DNA from: Armatimonadota bacterium
GTDB taxonomy: Bacteria; Sysuimicrobiota; Sysuimicrobiia; Sysuimicrobiales; Kaftiobacteriaceae
DNA length: 35,765 nucleotides
Assembly: GCA_031081675.1 (NCBI GenBank)
Contig: JAVHLZ010000010.1
Coordinates: forward strand, 1-35,765
Reading direction: 5' to 3'
The position numbers were made by a program, and so were the translations under genes. This document shows positions 22,904-34,448 of this stretch, piece after piece. Below the pieces are notes generated by a model that saw nothing but the letters and a program-made list of their open reading frames with translations, searched no databases and was not told where the DNA came from. The stretch's first letter is position 1; every line of letters begins with the position of its first letter.

Positions 22904-23908
22904 TCACCGGGCGGACCCGATCTGCGCCATCAGGCGCTCGGCGGCGGTGTACGGGTCCATCTCCCCCGCCGCCACCTTCTCGACGAACTCTTCCAGCCGC
23001 CGGTCCCCTTCCAGGATCCGCCGGCGGAGGCGGGCTTCGAGGATCCGCAGGATGTCGGCCCGATGCCGCTGCCGCCTCCTGCGCTCCAGCAGTCCGCGGG
23101 AGCGCAGGAACTGCCGGTGCTCCTCCAGGGCGGCGCGGACCTCGTCCACCCCCTGCCCGGTGGTCGCCACGGTGAGCAGGACCGGGGGGAACCATCCGTC
23201 CCGCGGCCCGGCCATGCCCAGCATCATGCGGATCTCGGTGGCCGTGCGGTCGGCGTCGGGGCGGTCGGCCTTGTTCACCACGAAGACGTCGCCGATCTCC
23301 AGGATGCCGGCCTTCAGGGTCTGCACCGCGTCCCCCAGCCCCGGCACCAGGACGATCACCACCGTGTCGGCCGCGCCCACCACGTCCACCTCCGCCTGGC
23401 CGGTCCCCACGGTCTCGATGACCACCAGGTCGTAGCCGACGGCGTCCAGGACCTTCGCCACATCCGCCGTGGCCGGCGCCAGACCGCCCAGGCCGCCGCG
23501 GGTGGCCATGCTGCGGATGAACACGCCGGGATCGGTGGCGTGATCCTGCATGCGGATGCGATCCCCCAGGACGGCGCCGCCGGTGAAGGGGCTGGTGGGA
23601 TCCACCGCGGCGACGGCCACCGTCTGGCCCCGGGCCCGCACGCGGCGGATCAGGGCGTCCACCAGGGTGCTCTTGCCGGCCCCCGGCGGGCCGGTGACCC
23701 CGATCAGGTGGGCCCGACCCGTGTGCGGATGGAGGATCCGCAGCGCCTCCTGTCCCCGGGGGTCCCCATCCTCGACCAGCGAGATCAGGCGCGCCAGGGC
23801 CGGGACGGAGCCGGCGCGGGCCTGCTCCAGCAGGCGCTCGGCGTCTCCGCTCACCGGCCCCACAGATCGCTCCCCCGACGGCGCCCTCGCCGGCCGCGCC
23901 CCGTCCAC
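22904..23908 (-). CDS. meaB: Methylmalonyl-CoA mutase-associated GTPase MeaB
   Basis: A 334-residue G3E-class P-loop GTPase that protects and reloads adenosylcobalamin on methylmalonyl-CoA mutase. Walker A GPPGAGKS is at residues 73–80. VAAVDPTSPFTGGAVLGDR is the MeaB/ArgK signature, then VIETVGTGQAEVDV (switch) and VVNKADRPDAD for guanine recognition. It has a C-terminal helical extension for dimerisation. ATG 23908 gives a ~20-residue unconserved head; GTG 23854 (VSGDAERLL) is an equally plausible start. Directly follows the mutase gene. Confidence 0.92.
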   Translation of the reverse strand: MDGARPARAPSGERSVGPVSGDAERLLEQARAGSVPALARLISLVEDGDPRGQEALRILHPHTGRAHLIGVTGPPGAGKSTLVDALIRRVRARGQTVAVAAVDPTSPFTGGAVLGDRIRMQDHATDPGVFIRSMATRGGLGGLAPATADVAKVLDAVGYDLVVIETVGTGQAEVDVVGAADTVVIVLVPGLGDAVQTLKAGILEIGDVFVVNKADRPDADRTATEIRMMLGMAGPRDGWFPPVLLTVATTGQGVDEVRAALEEHRQFLRSRGLLERRRRQRHRADILRILEARLRRRILEGDRRLEEFVEKVAAGEMDPYTAAERLMAQIGSAR

Positions 23909-23918
23909 CCCGCGGCCA

Positions 23919-25571
<1,653 letters not shown>

Positions 25572-25604: not shown

Positions 25605-26144
25605 TCACTCCCCGGGGTCCAGCGTGACCAGCACCGTCCCCCCGGCCACGTCCTGTCCGGCCGACACGTGCACCGCGCGCACCCGCCCGGATGAGGGCGC
25701 GCGGATCTCCATCTGCATCTTCATCGCTTCCATGATCACCACAGCCTGTCCCTGCTCGACGGCGGCCCCGGGCGTCACCTCCACCGCCACCACCAGACCC
25801 GGCATGGGCGCGCGGATCTCCCGGGCCGCCGGGGGACCCCCGGTCCGGACGCGGCGGGCCACCGGGAGGTCCGGCTCCACGCGCACCACCGCCCGGTCGG
25901 CGCCCACGGTCACCACCCACTCCGCCCCCCGGCGGCGGACCTCCACCACATGGGTGGTGGCGCCGACGGCGAGCCGGAAGTGAGTGCTCCCCAGCAGCGG
26001 GCGCAGGTCCACCGCCACCGGGGGAGCACCGTCCACGGAGATCTGGAGGGCCTGCCCCGAGGGCCACGCCGTCACCCGGTGGGTGCGTCCGGCGACGAAG
26101 ACCAGGAAGGCGCGGGCACTCCCCGGCGCAGCCTCTTCGCTCAT
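25605..26144 (-). CDS. Biotin carboxyl carrier protein of acyl-CoA carboxylase
   Basis: A 179-residue protein whose last ~75 residues form a biotinyl domain. The biotin-accepting lysine K142 lies in EAMKM (139–143), flanked by MPGLVVAVEV and SSGRVRAVHV. The N-terminal ~100 residues are a beta-rich stretch like the BT linker region of propionyl/methylcrotonyl-CoA carboxylase alpha chains, here a separate polypeptide. Located 25 bp after the biotin carboxylase gene and followed by the mutase gene 33 bp later. Confidence 0.9.
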   Translation of the reverse strand: MSEEAAPGSARAFLVFVAGRTHRVTAWPSGQALQISVDGAPPVAVDLRPLLGSTHFRLAVGATTHVVEVRRRGAEWVVTVGADRAVVRVEPDLPVARRVRTGGPPAAREIRAPMPGLVVAVEVTPGAAVEQGQAVVIMEAMKMQMEIRAPSSGRVRAVHVSAGQDVAGGTVLVTLDPGE

Positions 26145-26169: not shown

Positions 26170-27648
26170 TCATGGAGGCGGGGGGCGCAGTCCTTCCTGC
26201 CGCGCGGCCTGGATCCAGCGCGCCGCCGCCCCCCGGAGGGGAGCGGGGCCCCGCGGGAAGGCGGCCGCGGCCACCGCGGCCAGGACGGCCACCCGCTCGG
26301 CCCCGGGCGAGGAGGGGCGGGCCTCCCACCGCGCCACGAACCCGGTGTCGTGGTGCCCGGAGGCGAAGGCGGGCTCCCGCAGGGCCCACCGGTGAAAGGG
26401 CAGGGTGGTGGGGACGCCGGCGATCACGGCCTCGTCCACCGCCCGCCGCAGCCGCCGCAGCGCCTCATCCCGGTCCGCGCCCCACGCGATGATCTTGGCC
26501 AGCAGCGGGTCGTAGTGGTGGGACACCTCCATCCCCGCATACACGGCGGCGTCAATCCGGATGCCCGGTCCCCCCGGCAGCCAGACGCCGTCGATGCGCC
26601 CGGCCGCGGGCAGGAACCCCTCGTGGGGATCTTCGGCCCCCACCCGGCACTCGATGGCCCACCCGCGGGCGGAGACGTCGGAGCGCACTCCGGCGCGCCC
26701 CTCCAGCGCCACCCGCAGCTGTTCGGCCACCAGGTCCACCCCGGTGACCATCTCGGTGACCGGGTGCTCCACCTGCAGGCGGGCGTTCACCTCCAGGAAG
26801 TAGATCTCGTCGGCGCCGACCAGGAACTCCACCGTCCCCGCGTTGACATACCCCACAGCCCGGGCCGCGGCGGCGGCGGCCTGCCGCAGGCGCGCCCGCA
26901 GGGGCTCGGACAGGGACGGGGCGGGACTTTCCTCGATCAGCTTCTGGTGCCGGCGCTGGACGCTGCAGTCGCGCTCGGGGAAGACGACCACCACCCCGGA
27001 GGCATCGGCGAGCACCTGCACCTCCACGTGGCGGGCGCCTTCCACCCACTTCTCCAGGTACACGCGGTCGTCGCCGAAGGCGGTGCGGGCTTCCCCGCGC
27101 GCCAGCCGCAGGGTGGCCGCCAGCTGCCCCGGCTCCCGGACCAGGTGGATCCCCTTGCCGCCGCCGCCGGCGGCGGCCTTCACCAGCAGCGGGTAGCCCA
27201 ACCGCTCCGCCAGGGTCGGGGCGTCCCGGTCGTCCACCGGCCCGGTGCCCGGCAGGACGGGCACGCCCGAACCGGCCATCGCCATCCGCGCGGCGGCCTT
27301 GTCTCCGCACAGCTCCAGGACCTGGGGCGGGGGCCCCACGAAACGCACGCCCGCGTGCTGGCAGGCCCGGGCGAAGGCCGCCGACTCGGCGAGAAAGCCG
27401 TATCCGGGATGGATGGCGGTGGCGCCCACGCGGCGGGCGGCCTCCAGCAGGGCGTCCAGGTGCAGGTAGCTGTGCTCGGGAGGGTCGCCCGGCAGGGCCA
27501 CCGCCTCGTCGGCCTGCCAGACGTGGGGAGCGTTCCGATCGGACGGCGAGTAGACGGCGGCCGCCCGCAGCCCCATCTCCCGGCAGGCGCGGATGACGCG
27601 CACCGCGATCTCTCCGCGGTTGGCCACCAGGATCGTGGGACGCGTCAC
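26170..27648 (-). CDS. Acyl-CoA (propionyl/acetyl-CoA) carboxylase, biotin carboxylase subunit
   Basis: A 492-residue ATP-grasp enzyme that carboxylates biotin. ILVANRGEIAVRVIRACRE starts the N-terminal domain. KAAAGGGGKGIHLVREP is the ATP-binding glycine-rich loop. ERDCSVQRRHQKLIEE and FLEVNARLQVEHPVTEMVTG carry the metal, bicarbonate and biotin residues. The C-terminal ~45 residues are alanine/proline-rich. Together with the carrier protein and the carboxyltransferase it would make methylmalonyl-CoA from propionyl-CoA; an acetyl-CoA role is also possible. Confidence 0.94.
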   Translation of the reverse strand: MTRPTILVANRGEIAVRVIRACREMGLRAAAVYSPSDRNAPHVWQADEAVALPGDPPEHSYLHLDALLEAARRVGATAIHPGYGFLAESAAFARACQHAGVRFVGPPPQVLELCGDKAAARMAMAGSGVPVLPGTGPVDDRDAPTLAERLGYPLLVKAAAGGGGKGIHLVREPGQLAATLRLARGEARTAFGDDRVYLEKWVEGARHVEVQVLADASGVVVVFPERDCSVQRRHQKLIEESPAPSLSEPLRARLRQAAAAAARAVGYVNAGTVEFLVGADEIYFLEVNARLQVEHPVTEMVTGVDLVAEQLRVALEGRAGVRSDVSARGWAIECRVGAEDPHEGFLPAAGRIDGVWLPGGPGIRIDAAVYAGMEVSHHYDPLLAKIIAWGADRDEALRRLRRAVDEAVIAGVPTTLPFHRWALREPAFASGHHDTGFVARWEARPSSPGAERVAVLAAVAAAAFPRGPAPLRGAAARWIQAARQEGLRPPPP

Positions 27649-28283: not shown

Positions 28284-28375
28284 GGGGAGGGACGAAGGAA
28301 GAGGGAAGAAGGAAGAGGGATGAGGGAGGAGGATGAGATCTCCCTTTTCCCTCTTCCCTCTTCCCTTTTCCCTAT
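28284..28375 (-). repeat. Long purine/pyrimidine inverted repeat, copy 2
   Basis: Same design as 21119–21236. Directly after the carboxyltransferase stop (minus strand) comes an A/G arm of GGGAAGAGGGAA units (about 28371–28340). A short spacer follows, then a C/T arm of TCCCTCTTCCTTCTTCCC type (about 28325–28287), ending about 50 bp before the GNAT start. The arms pair extensively. A second copy in the same orientation relative to genes shows it is a dispersed element. Confidence 0.75.
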
Positions 28376-29920
28376 TCACAGCGGCAGATTGTCGTGCTTC
28401 TTGCGCGGCAGGGTCTCGCGCTTGCCCGCCAGGGCCCGCAGGGCCGAGATCAGGCGGGGGCGCGTCCGGCGGGGCTCGATGACATCGTCCAGGTAGCCGC
28501 GGGACGCCGCCACGTAGGGCGTGGCGAACTGGGCCCGGTACTCCCGGACCAGCCGGTCCCGGAGCGCCTGGGGGTCGGCGGCCTCGGCCAGCTCGCGGCG
28601 GAAGATGATCTCGATGGCCGCCTCGGGCCCCATCACCGCGATCTCGGCGGTGGGCCACGCCAGGTTCACATCGCCCCGGATGTGCTTGCTGGACATGACG
28701 TCGTAGGCGCCGCCGTACGCCTTGCGGGTGATCACGGACAGCTTGGGGACCGTCGCCTCGCAGTAGGCGAACAGCAGCTTGGCGCCGTGGCGGATGATGC
28801 CCCCGTGCTCCTGCTCCACCCCCGGCAGGAAGCCCGGCACATCCACGAAGCTCACCAGGGGAATGTTGAACGCGTCACAGAACCGGATGAAGCGCGCCCC
28901 CTTCACCGACGCGTTGATGTCGAGGACGCCGGCCAGGACCTGGGGCTGCTGGGCCACCACGCCGACGGTGCGGCCGTCCAGGCGGGCCAGGCCCGTGATC
29001 AGGTTGGGGGCGAATCCGGCCGCCACCTCCAGAAACGTCCCGGCGTCCACCACCCGGGTGATCACCTCGCGCATGTCGTAGGGCCGCACCGGGTCGTCGG
29101 GCACGATGTCGTCCAGGGCCGGGTCCTCCCGGGCCGGATCGTCCCCGGTGTCCACCACCGGGGGGTCGTCCAGGTTGTTCTGGGGCAGGTAGGAGAGCAG
29201 GCGGCGGATCAGCTCCAGGCAGGCGGGATCGTCGTCCACCACAAAGTGGGCGACCCCGCTGCGGGTGGCGTGCACGTCGGCGCCGCCCAGCTCCTCAAAG
29301 CCCACCTCCTCCCGGGTCACCGCCTTCACCACCTGGGGGCCGGTCACGAACATGTAGCTGGTGCCCCGCACCATGATCACGAAATCGGTGATGGCCGGCG
29401 AGTACACGGCTCCCCCGGCGCAGGGTCCCATGATGGCCGAGATCTGCGGGATCACGCCCGAGGCCAGGGTGTTGCGCAGGAAGATCTCGGCGTAGCCGCC
29501 CAGGCTGGCCACGCCCTCCTGGATGCGGGCCCCGCCGGAGTCGTTGAGGCCGATGAGCGGTGCCCCCGCCCGGAGGGCCATATCCATCACCTTCACGATT
29601 TTGCGGGCGTGGCCCTCGCCCAGCGATCCCCCCAGAACCGTGAAGTCCTGGGAGAACACGAACACCAGCCGGCCGTCGATGGTCCCGTAGCCGGTGACCA
29701 CGCCGTCGGCGGGCGCCTCCACGCGGTCCAGCCCGAACTCGCGCCCGTGGGGAGTGACGAACATGTCCAGCTCGGTGAAGCTGCCGGGGTCCAGCAGCAG
29801 GTCCAGGCGCTCGCGCGCGGTCAGCTTGCCGGCCTCGTGCTGGCGGGCGACCCGCTGGGGGCCTCCCATGGCCAGGATCCGTTCGCGGCGGCGGCGCAGG
29901 TCCTCGATCCTCTCGCTCAT
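28376..29920 (-). CDS. Acyl-CoA carboxylase, carboxyltransferase subunit (PccB-like)
   Basis: A 514-residue carboxyltransferase of the crotonase superfamily. Features in order: [52 protein letters not shown] (N-terminal oxyanion loop); [17 protein letters not shown]. The C-half has [40 protein letters not shown] and [10 protein letters not shown]. It transfers the carboxyl from biotin to propionyl-CoA or another short acyl-CoA. First of the carboxylase/mutase series on this strand. Confidence 0.94.
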
Positions 29921-30007: not shown

Positions 30008-31096
30008 TCAGCTCCGCAGGGGGCGGATGGCGATGATGCCGTGCTTGAAGACCAGTTCGCGGCCGCCGGCGTGCTCCACCAGGAGGCTGTACGTCCCGAA
30101 ATCCCTGACCACCGCCTGGGGGATCTCATAACCGTCGCGGCAGCGGATGTGCACGGGCGTGCCCGCGGCGACCAGCTGGCGGAGGAACTCATCCTCCATG
30201 GACCCCCGCCCCGCCCGCGGGGGCTCCCGCGACTCGACCGCCGCGCCGCCCGGCCGCTCCGGGCGGATCTGGGCAACGTCCACCGCGTCCGCCGGCTCCT
30301 CCTCCCCCTCGGACCCCAGGGCGGGCATCTGGCGCTGGGGCTCCCGCAGCCTCCGGTACTGAGCCCGCATGGACTCCAGCTCTTCCCGGCGATCTCTCAT
30401 CCCCCACCCCCGTCGCTGCGACCGCTCTCCCTCCCGGGCCACGGCATCCAGGGTCGCCGCAATCACCGCCTCGGTGTCGCGACCGTCCACCAGCGCCACC
30501 CCGGCATAGCGCCGGCCCTCCCCGGCTCCGGCCACAGCCACCGTCACCAGGATCGCTTCCCCGTCCGGCACGACCACCGGCGTCACCGCTTCCAGGGTGG
30601 CCCGGCGGCCCGCGTCCAGGGCGGGCCGCAGCGCGTCCAGGGTGGCCAGGGCCACCGCCCGCAGGCGGCTGGTCCGATCCGGCAGGGCCCGGGCGCGCCC
30701 GATCAGGGGTCCGCCCTCTCCCCGCCGCAGTTCCACGGTGACCCGCACGCCGTCCGGCTGCAGGACCTCCTCCACCCGGTGGATCCTCCAGGAAGGCGCC
30801 GCGGACGGGTGGAGGCGGGCCACCCGGATCCGCCACCCGTCCACGGCCAGGGAGTAGCGGGACATCAGGGCGGCCGCCACCGCCCGGCGGACCGCCGACT
30901 CTTCCCGGTCACCCGATGCCGTCACGTAGATGGCGTCGATCTCCCCGGCATCGGTGGCCACCACCCGGGCCGCCGTGATCCCCTCCAGGCTCTCCAGCAG
31001 AGCCTCCAGGTCCTCCGCAAAGACCTCCCCGGATGTCGCGCTCGCCCTTCGGGTGGCCATGGTGTGCATGGGGAAATTCCGTGCGGTGCTGGACAT
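30008..31096 (-). CDS. Uncharacterised protein with C-terminal Hfq-like (Sm) domain
   Basis: 362 residues in three parts. Residues ~20–90 are a small alpha/beta domain (FAEDLEALLESLEGITAARV … VRRAVAAALMSRY); residues ~95–225 a second alpha/beta region (VRVTVELRRGEGGPLIGRA … ATLDALRPAL). A charged, arginine/proline-rich linker follows (~226–299). Residues 300–362 match Hfq: FLRQLVAAGTPVHIRCRDGY (Sm1) and GRELVFKHGIIAI (Sm2, with the F/Y-K-H triad at 351–353). Ordinary Hfq is 70–100 residues, so a fused form is unusual. The start could also be ATG 31069. I do not know a function for the N-terminal parts. The gene follows the GerMN gene by 57 bp. Confidence 0.7.
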   Translation of the reverse strand: MSSTARNFPMHTMATRRASATSGEVFAEDLEALLESLEGITAARVVATDAGEIDAIYVTASGDREESAVRRAVAAALMSRYSLAVDGWRIRVARLHPSAAPSWRIHRVEEVLQPDGVRVTVELRRGEGGPLIGRARALPDRTSRLRAVALATLDALRPALDAGRRATLEAVTPVVVPDGEAILVTVAVAGAGEGRRYAGVALVDGRDTEAVIAATLDAVAREGERSQRRGWGMRDRREELESMRAQYRRLREPQRQMPALGSEGEEEPADAVDVAQIRPERPGGAAVESREPPRAGRGSMEDEFLRQLVAAGTPVHIRCRDGYEIPQAVVRDFGTYSLLVEHAGGRELVFKHGIIAIRPLRS

Positions 31097-31153: not shown

Positions 31154-31672
31154 TTAGAATTCGGGCAGCGACGGCGGCCGGGACAGCGGCCGGTCGATCA
31201 GCACCCCCTCTCCGCCCAGGGCCTCGCGCGCCTGGCCGTCGATCAGCAGCCGCACCCTCGGGACCGTGGGGATCTGGGTGGCGGTGTAGACGATCTGCCA
31301 CAGCCGGCCCAGCATGCTGGCGGTGCCGCCCCCGGAGGCCACCTCGCCGCTGAGATCCACCACGACCATGCCATCCTCGATCCGCAGGCCGCGCAGGCGC
31401 GTGCCGGACGGGATCGCCGTGGTCAGGCCCCGGGCCCGCTCGTCGGCGGTGGGGCCGGACAGGAGGGCCTGTAGGGCGCCCCGCAGGCGGGCGTGGGCGC
31501 TCCGCCCCCGCACCCGCCGGGACACGTCCTGGAGGGTGTCGCCGCCGTCGCTGGCGCGGATGAAGTACACGGCCACCGTGGTCTCCGACCGCGCCAGCCA
31601 CCACCATACGACCCCGGCCCCGACGATGGCGGCCAGCGCCGCGGCCACCCCCGCCCGGACGCGCCGACTCAT
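31154..31672 (-). CDS. GerMN-domain protein, membrane-anchored
   Basis: A 172-residue protein with an N-terminal membrane segment (residues ~8–27, ending WWWLA) and an outside GerMN domain. Typical elements are VAVYFIRASDGG, LRGALQALLSGPTADERARG, TTAIPSGTRLRGLRIEDGMV, VVDLSGEVASGGG and LLIDGQAREALGGEGV. GerMN domains occur in spore germination GerM and in envelope lipoproteins of many non-sporulating bacteria; there is no lipobox cysteine here. An envelope role is likely, exact function unknown. It lies 123 bp after the sulfur-carrier gene; that gap holds nothing I recognise. Confidence 0.78.
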   Translation of the reverse strand: MSRRVRAGVAAALAAIVGAGVVWWWLARSETTVAVYFIRASDGGDTLQDVSRRVRGRSAHARLRGALQALLSGPTADERARGLTTAIPSGTRLRGLRIEDGMVVVDLSGEVASGGGTASMLGRLWQIVYTATQIPTVPRVRLLIDGQAREALGGEGVLIDRPLSRPPSLPEF

Positions 31673-34339: not shown

Positions 34340-34448
34340 CTCTTATCTCTCGGAATTGGTTCCGCGGGAGTTGGCACCTTGCGGCGCCGGAAGCGCCGCA
34401 GGTTGCCGGGGGTCATCGGGCCCGTCCCTCGCCCACTCTGGATAAGAG
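34340..34448 (-). ncRNA. SAM-I (S-box) riboswitch aptamer
   Basis: A 109-nt leader element on the minus strand. P1 is CTCTTATC (34448–34441) with GATAAGAG (34347–34340). Conserved core blocks in order: CAGAGTGG, GAGGGACGGGCCCGATGA, CGGCAACC, a GC-rich P3 (TGCGGCG…CGCCGCA), AAGGTGCCAACTCC and GAGAGATAAGAG. These match the SAM-I consensus (GAGGGAC…GCCC-GAUGA…GCAACC…AGGUGC-AA-UCC) closely. It is followed by a terminator and thrB. SAM-I elements normally control methionine, cysteine and SAM genes, so placement before thrB/thrC is informative. Confidence 0.95.

Follow-up and report, generated by a model that had tools for sequence, protein, structure and literature searches.

Hfq is usually seen as a small hub whose activity follows the supply of RNA and protein. 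The locus studied here raises the question of what an Hfq domain might do when it shares one chain with a domain shaped like the sensor of LeuA. The window (the whole stretch of 35,765 nucleotides that was analysed) encodes on its minus strand a protein of 362 amino acids, which a first-pass annotation had described as an Hfq-like domain fused to two uncharacterised alpha/beta regions. The open reading frame and its coordinates stand as described, and only the start codon has been corrected, to uncertain (M1, M10 or M13), because the first 12-20 residues are not conserved. In an AlphaFold model built from 19 sequences (single chains only), two confident N-terminal domains are followed by a long helix, a low-confidence linker and a confident Hfq domain (residues 300-359). 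The gene and its parts are as follows.

30008..31096, minus strand: fusion gene, 362 amino acids in a single frame
30809..31027, minus strand: domain 1, residues 24-96, alpha-beta-beta-alpha-beta (AlphaFold; 67% mean column identity in alignment A7)
30431..30799, minus strand: domain 2, residues 100-222, (beta3-alpha)2, like the LeuA regulatory domain (Foldseek; Pfam LeuA_dimer on paralogous copies)
30335..30478, minus strand: long helix, residues 207-254 (AlphaFold), with conserved R236/E241 and the pattern 'DRR..LE.MR..Y'
30206..30331, minus strand: low-confidence linker, residues 256-297 (pLDDT below 50), of varying length among relatives
30239..30268, minus strand: linker motif IRPERPGGAA, residues 277-286, retained in most relatives
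30011..30199, minus strand: Hfq domain, residues 300-362 (Pfam, NCBIfam, PDB profile, AlphaFold/Foldseek, alignment)

The C-terminal assignment to Hfq is borne out by sequence and by fold. Pfam PF17209 (Hfq) matches residues 302-361 with 28.3 bits (E 1.4e-6), above its gathering score of 27. It is the sole Pfam family found in the fusion protein, and it also matches 29 of the 31 family members (E <= 0.1). The first-pass annotation held that its idea would fall if a profile search gave no Hfq/Sm match at the C-terminus; such a match was obtained, and the idea survives. When a profile of 31 relatives was compared with the PDB, the low-E matches were all Hfq/Sm chains, the best being T. maritima Hfq (2.9e-7). 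The modelled domain is confident (pLDDT about 93-95) and resembles many Hfq crystal structures (Foldseek E 2.3e-5, TM by target about 0.8-0.9). RimP and WYL were considered as identities of the Sm-like domain and rejected, as neither Pfam nor the family-profile PDB search gave such a match.

This is nevertheless not a textbook Hfq. The fusion C-terminus shares with Hfq the Sm fold, the N-terminal helix, the order of Sm1 and Sm2, and K56 and H57 (E. coli numbering), but it differs by a one-residue insertion after L32. It reaches 23.9 bits against the NCBIfam Hfq equivalog TIGR02383, whose cut-off is 61.7, and it likewise falls far under the cut-offs of the other NCBIfam Hfq equivalog models. 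Nor is it a stand-alone short Hfq, since it lies inside the 362-residue chain in one frame. The first-pass annotation had also called for a search for a separate short hfq elsewhere in the genome; a six-frame search of the window's genome (97.8% complete) found neither this nor any second gene with an Hfq domain.

A simple explanation for such a chain would be an artefact of assembly or annotation, with hfq read through from a neighbouring gene. The fusion is known from draft and metagenome genomes only, and in one of them (G042) its frame is split. Yet the frame is uninterrupted in 31 genomes, including one in which it lies on a 3.15-Mb contig (G023), and the amino acid sequence is strongly conserved, with a linker motif that is conserved too. 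In comparisons between related genomes, all three folded domains (1, 2 and Hfq) show a dN well below dS; the linker region is less constrained. This selection against amino acid change in the folded domains, together with the intact frames and the linker motif, refutes the read-through artefact, to which we give a negligible chance.

What the domain could still do with RNA can be judged from the residues of its faces, compared across the 31 fusion sequences. The F/Y-K-H triad of Sm2, reported in the first-pass annotation, is present as F350-K351-H352; across the family its first position is F in 25 sequences and Y in six, and K and H (K56 and H57) are invariant (31/31 each). At the proximal U-site, position 42 is Tyr in 26/31, Q8 is replaced by E in all 31 and 30 sequences have T at position 41. 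Given the invariant K56/H57 and the Tyr at position 42, the uridine pocket may have kept its core. The distal face that binds ARN/poly(A) in canonical Hfq has been rebuilt: Y25 is R in 30/31, and I30, K31 and Q52 have become Y, E and E in 31/31. In all 31 domains L26 is also replaced, by C. On the rim, R16 is V, I or L, R17 is mostly A, T, E or V, and position 19 is G in 19 and R in nine of the 31, so that the arginine patch is missing. RNA annealing is diminished in Hfq variants with a poor arginine patch (PMC9037510). With the rim arginines lost and the distal face rebuilt (Y25R, K31E, Q52E), canonical ARN/poly(A) binding is unlikely.

Altogether, the replacement of Q8, Y25, K31, Q52 and the rim arginines is family-specific, and the domain is therefore not an orthologous Hfq. 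It is Hfq by fold and core signature, with a rebuilt surface of its own that is constant across the phylum. E301, R318, C319, Y323, E324 and E347 are invariant or nearly so and specific to the family, and the net charge of the domain is near zero. The constancy of this surface suggests a specific partner.

One way to read the rebuilt surface is that the Sm fold binds a ligand or nucleotide and not RNA, as has been proposed for WYL. WYL domains resemble the Sm fold. They offer a precedent for such a domain in ligand-responsive regulators (PMC4012209, PMC6789036). The charged and cysteine residues that are invariant and peculiar to the family on the distal face would suit this idea, but the sequence matches Hfq and no WYL model, and the uridine site retains its K-H pair. 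We regard it as improbable. The reading that we prefer is that of an RNA-binding regulator, whose N-terminal half would be the part that responds to a ligand.

Of the two N-terminal regions that the first-pass annotation left uncharacterised, both are indeed folded domains, but one of them can now be given a likeness. Domain 1 has weak fold neighbours only (e.g. ring-building domains and cytosolic domains of cation transporters in Foldseek). Domain 2 has the (beta3-alpha)2 fold of LeuA_dimer, as judged by secondary structure and Foldseek. M. tuberculosis LeuA takes all five of the top PDB places (E 5.3e-5 to 3.9e-4; TM by query 0.39-0.43 for a model of 207 residues), with 3fig, 1sr9 and 3hpz aligning over about 130 columns at an rmsd of about 4 A. 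Behind them comes the regulatory domain of citramalate synthase with isoleucine bound (LiCMS, E 0.025). In LeuA itself, leucine is held by the regulatory domain in pockets at the dimer interface (PMC11057210).

At the sequence level the likeness is fainter. PDB sequence searches with domain 1 alone and with domain 2 alone returned nothing significant, and Pfam PF08502 (LeuA_dimer) gave no match to the window's fusion protein up to E 1. Paralogues do lend independent support at this level: PF08502 reaches their copies of domain 2, the best being in G030 (E 4.7e-4; 21.4 bits vs a cut-off of 24.9), and the sites of these matches coincide with those of the domain-1/2 profile. The domain has the duplicated beta3-alpha fold of the LeuA regulatory domain and a similar C-terminal '..EA...A.LDAV.K' pattern; unlike LeuA, the fusion protein has no catalytic TIM barrel, and where LeuA has the ligand loop SGDGPVDAL (core GDGPVDA) the fusion consensus reads GxARGxxGxAxRLRTxA. 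Homology of domain 2 to the LeuA regulatory domain is likely and stops short of proof, because direct profile comparison is weak (hhalign probability 15%, E 0.0018). The first-pass annotation had suggested that the fusion could tether an enzyme or a sensor to RNA. The sensor has gained from these results, since the fold recognised in the middle region is that of the allosteric domain of LeuA, and the enzyme has found no support.

Domains 1 and 2 also occur without Hfq. A stand-alone protein of about 220 amino acids, which belongs to no Pfam family, consists of the two domains in the same order; it differs from the fusion in having no long helix, linker or Hfq domain. In CSP1-3, the candidate phylum now named Sysuimicrobiota (PMC11604079), it sits between hpf (ribosome hibernation factor) and secA (e.g. 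L090:6984-7637 and L096:7085-7738). The domain-1/2 profile matched 18 genomes outside the order, some partially, and in other phyla the relatives adjoin argS/purM-like genes or a Jag/KhpB-like gene. LeuA-like domains further appear as small stand-alone copies, several per genome in CSP1-3, and at the C-terminus of CBS-CBS-GGDEF proteins (L151:2998-4284, L155:3245-4513 and L157:4211-5488).

The genes around the fusion offer a metabolic context. The first-pass annotation placed the gene between an envelope protein gene and acyl-CoA carboxylase genes; the upstream neighbour encodes a Germane-domain protein and the downstream one a carboxyltransferase subunit. The neighbours in the window are the following.

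31154..31672, minus strand: upstream neighbour, Germane-domain protein (PF10646, E 3.7e-23), its position kept in relatives
28376..29920, minus strand: downstream neighbour pccB, carboxyltransferase subunit (PF01039, E 1e-202)
26170..27648, minus strand: biotin carboxylase subunit (Pfam and kept gene order)
25605..26144, minus strand: biotin carrier subunit (Biotin_lipoyl, 4.7e-20)
23919..25571, minus strand: methylmalonyl-CoA mutase large subunit (PF01642, 1.1e-231)
22904..23908, minus strand: MeaB GTPase (PF03308, 1.8e-94)

Gene order was scored in relatives whose contigs extend far enough, and it runs Germane, fusion, pccB, (GNAT), biotin carboxylase, biotin carrier, methylmalonyl-CoA mutase, (MeaB). 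The Germane-fusion-pccB order holds wherever both flanks are readable, assembly gaps aside, and where the order is shared, the relatives' pccB is about 72-83% identical. From the stop codon of the fusion to pccB there are 1-45 nt in most genera; in the window, as in some of its close relatives, the distance is about 87-150 nt. In one genome (G011) pccB, biotin carboxylase, mutase and MeaB are retained and the fusion is absent, the Germane gene being followed directly by pccB; another (G010) has the same Germane-pccB junction with a partial pccB. The remaining genomes of family f3 have no fusion, and no full-length carboxyltransferase closer than about 39% identity. Given these losses, the fusion is an optional but old member of the operon.

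In this context, our best explanation, to which we give somewhat less than an even chance, is that the fusion is an RNA-binding regulator that forms a ring and responds to a ligand through its N-terminal half, serving propionyl-CoA/methylmalonyl-CoA metabolism. The C-terminal Hfq domain would most likely form the ring and bind RNA. The LeuA-type domain would respond to a small molecule of that metabolism (a branched-chain amino acid, for example, or a short acyl compound), and the small alpha/beta domain 1 is of a type that often serves in contacts between proteins. The likely job of the fusion would be post-transcriptional control, for instance of its own propionyl-CoA carboxylase/methylmalonyl-CoA mutase transcript. 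The domain architecture, the single origin, the purifying selection, the linkage to the operon and the clean losses are established by the data; the ring, the binding of RNA and ligand, and the RNA under control are our inference. The proposal draws on the Hfq match over the cut-off, the invariant K56/H57 and the two folds. It draws also on the copies of domain 2 that end CBS-GGDEF proteins (i.e. adjoin signalling domains), on the domain-1/2 paralogue between hpf and secA, on the Germane-fusion-pccB synteny and on the f3 genomes, which lack the pccB orthologue and the fusion alike. Against it count the rim and distal changes, the near-zero charge, the lost LeuA loop, the weak hhalign result and the lack of a conserved RNA element adjoining the gene in Rfam searches and in folding of the fusion-pccB gap. 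A more specific version, in which a compound of branched-chain amino acid or propionyl-CoA metabolism is sensed by the LeuA-like domain, which directly switches RNA binding by the Hfq ring and so controls its own operon, is in our estimate unlikely.

A conserved RNA target in the fusion-pccB gap was considered and rejected: the gap is often under 50 nt, and the hairpins found in it consist of differing repeats. Strong hairpins (z about -5) occur in the gap of L061, L064 and L065; they are long, like an inverted repeat that the window has between pccB and the GNAT gene, and differ from it in sequence. The window's own fusion-pccB gap folds no better than shuffled sequence (z -0.09).

The same synteny feeds one of the two main rivals to the regulator reading, in which the protein belongs to the acyl-CoA carboxylase as an accessory or assembly subunit. 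Its Hfq domain would then be a ring scaffold for the (typically hexameric) carboxyltransferase and would have lost its RNA role. The fusion adjoins pccB in nearly all relatives, and the altered RNA faces with their new, (nearly) invariant E301, R318, C319, Y323, E324 and E347 also speak for this rival. However, the RNA-contact residues K56 and H57 remain invariant, G011 has pccB, biotin carboxylase, mutase and MeaB and lacks the fusion, and domain 2 is also found on CBS-GGDEF proteins unrelated to carboxylases. A carboxylase scaffold is thus, in our view, rather unlikely.

The fusion is present in 33 of the 43 genomes of the order, including the window's own (32 of the 42 others), and a search of genome contigs gave 20 fusion loci, in CSP1-3, ANGP1 and loosely labelled MAGs (Armatimonadetes, Bacillota, bacterium). 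It is missing from ten genomes: eight belong to families f2 and f3, and the other two have low completeness (G036, 78%; G041, 64%). The fusion has been cleanly lost in two lineages, and it has a single origin: by their N-terminal domains all 31 fusions group together at 100/100 support, separate from the stand-alone relatives. As part of our best explanation, and with the same reserve, we take it to be ancestral or near-ancestral in CSP1-3/Sysuimicrobiota.

The other main rival is that the fusion is a general RNA chaperone of the phylum, replacing short Hfq, with N-terminal domains that only add contacts and dimerise and a place in the operon that is inherited and has no regulatory meaning. 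The Hfq domain is well conserved, and no other gene in the window's genome carries one. The sole strong short hfq in the order (L100) lies on a 4.7-kb contig of the G006 MAG (C156), beside HflX-, HflK- and Der-like genes; this is a gene arrangement of proteobacterial type, and the contig is probably contamination. On the other hand, the eight f2/f3 genomes have no significant Hfq match whatever, a housekeeping chaperone would not need nearly so strict a synteny with pccB, and the rim arginines, important for annealing (PMC9037510), are missing. We consider a general Hfq substitute somewhat unlikely, and keep to the operon-linked regulator as the preferred reading.

Two short proteins in the order, L086:7178-7411 (G001) and L087:7174-7653 (G021), resemble the fusion's Hfq domain and not canonical Hfq; the second is without the K-H pair.

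Longer chains with an Hfq domain already exist elsewhere, and the LeuA-like partner is a new variation. Among the 389 genomes sampled, the architecture of Hfq plus LeuA-like domain is seen in Sysuimicrobiota only. Other long frames matching Hfq comprise an HTH-Hfq protein, tandem Hfq proteins (e.g. L205), and Hfq-related matches below the cut-off (L198/L199) with ParB-like or unknown parts; the remainder are probably merely extended reading frames. L203:1358-1927 encodes 189 amino acids, in which a match to a Crp-like helix-turn-helix precedes the Hfq domain (52 bits), and G200 and G335, of the same family, have Hfq matches in frames of similar length. L203, L198 (Hfq-related plus ParB-like) and L205 thus resemble the fusion in setting an Hfq domain in a larger chain, but their partner domains differ and include no LeuA-like region. 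The papers searched gave no match for an Hfq domain fused to another domain, an absence that does not show the fusion to be undescribed, and the main text of the CSP1-3 description (PMC11604079) makes no mention of Hfq or propionyl-CoA.

The fusion raises the idea that a metabolite might influence how an Hfq handles RNA. With Hfq and an allosteric-type sensor joined in one chain, it offers a direct route to ask about metabolite gating, and its value for this question is the greater as the search of the window's genome turned up no second Hfq. It also connects an unnamed and widespread domain-1/2 protein to RNA biology, and it is a first candidate post-transcriptional regulator for CSP1-3.

In the window, Rfam finds only a SAM riboswitch and a tRNA. 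The riboswitch (RF00162, 85.5 bits) lies at 34340-34448 on the minus strand, upstream of homoserine kinase and threonine synthase genes. Between pccB and the GNAT gene, a long purine/pyrimidine inverted repeat spans 28288-28377, with arms of 35 nt that are 83% complementary.
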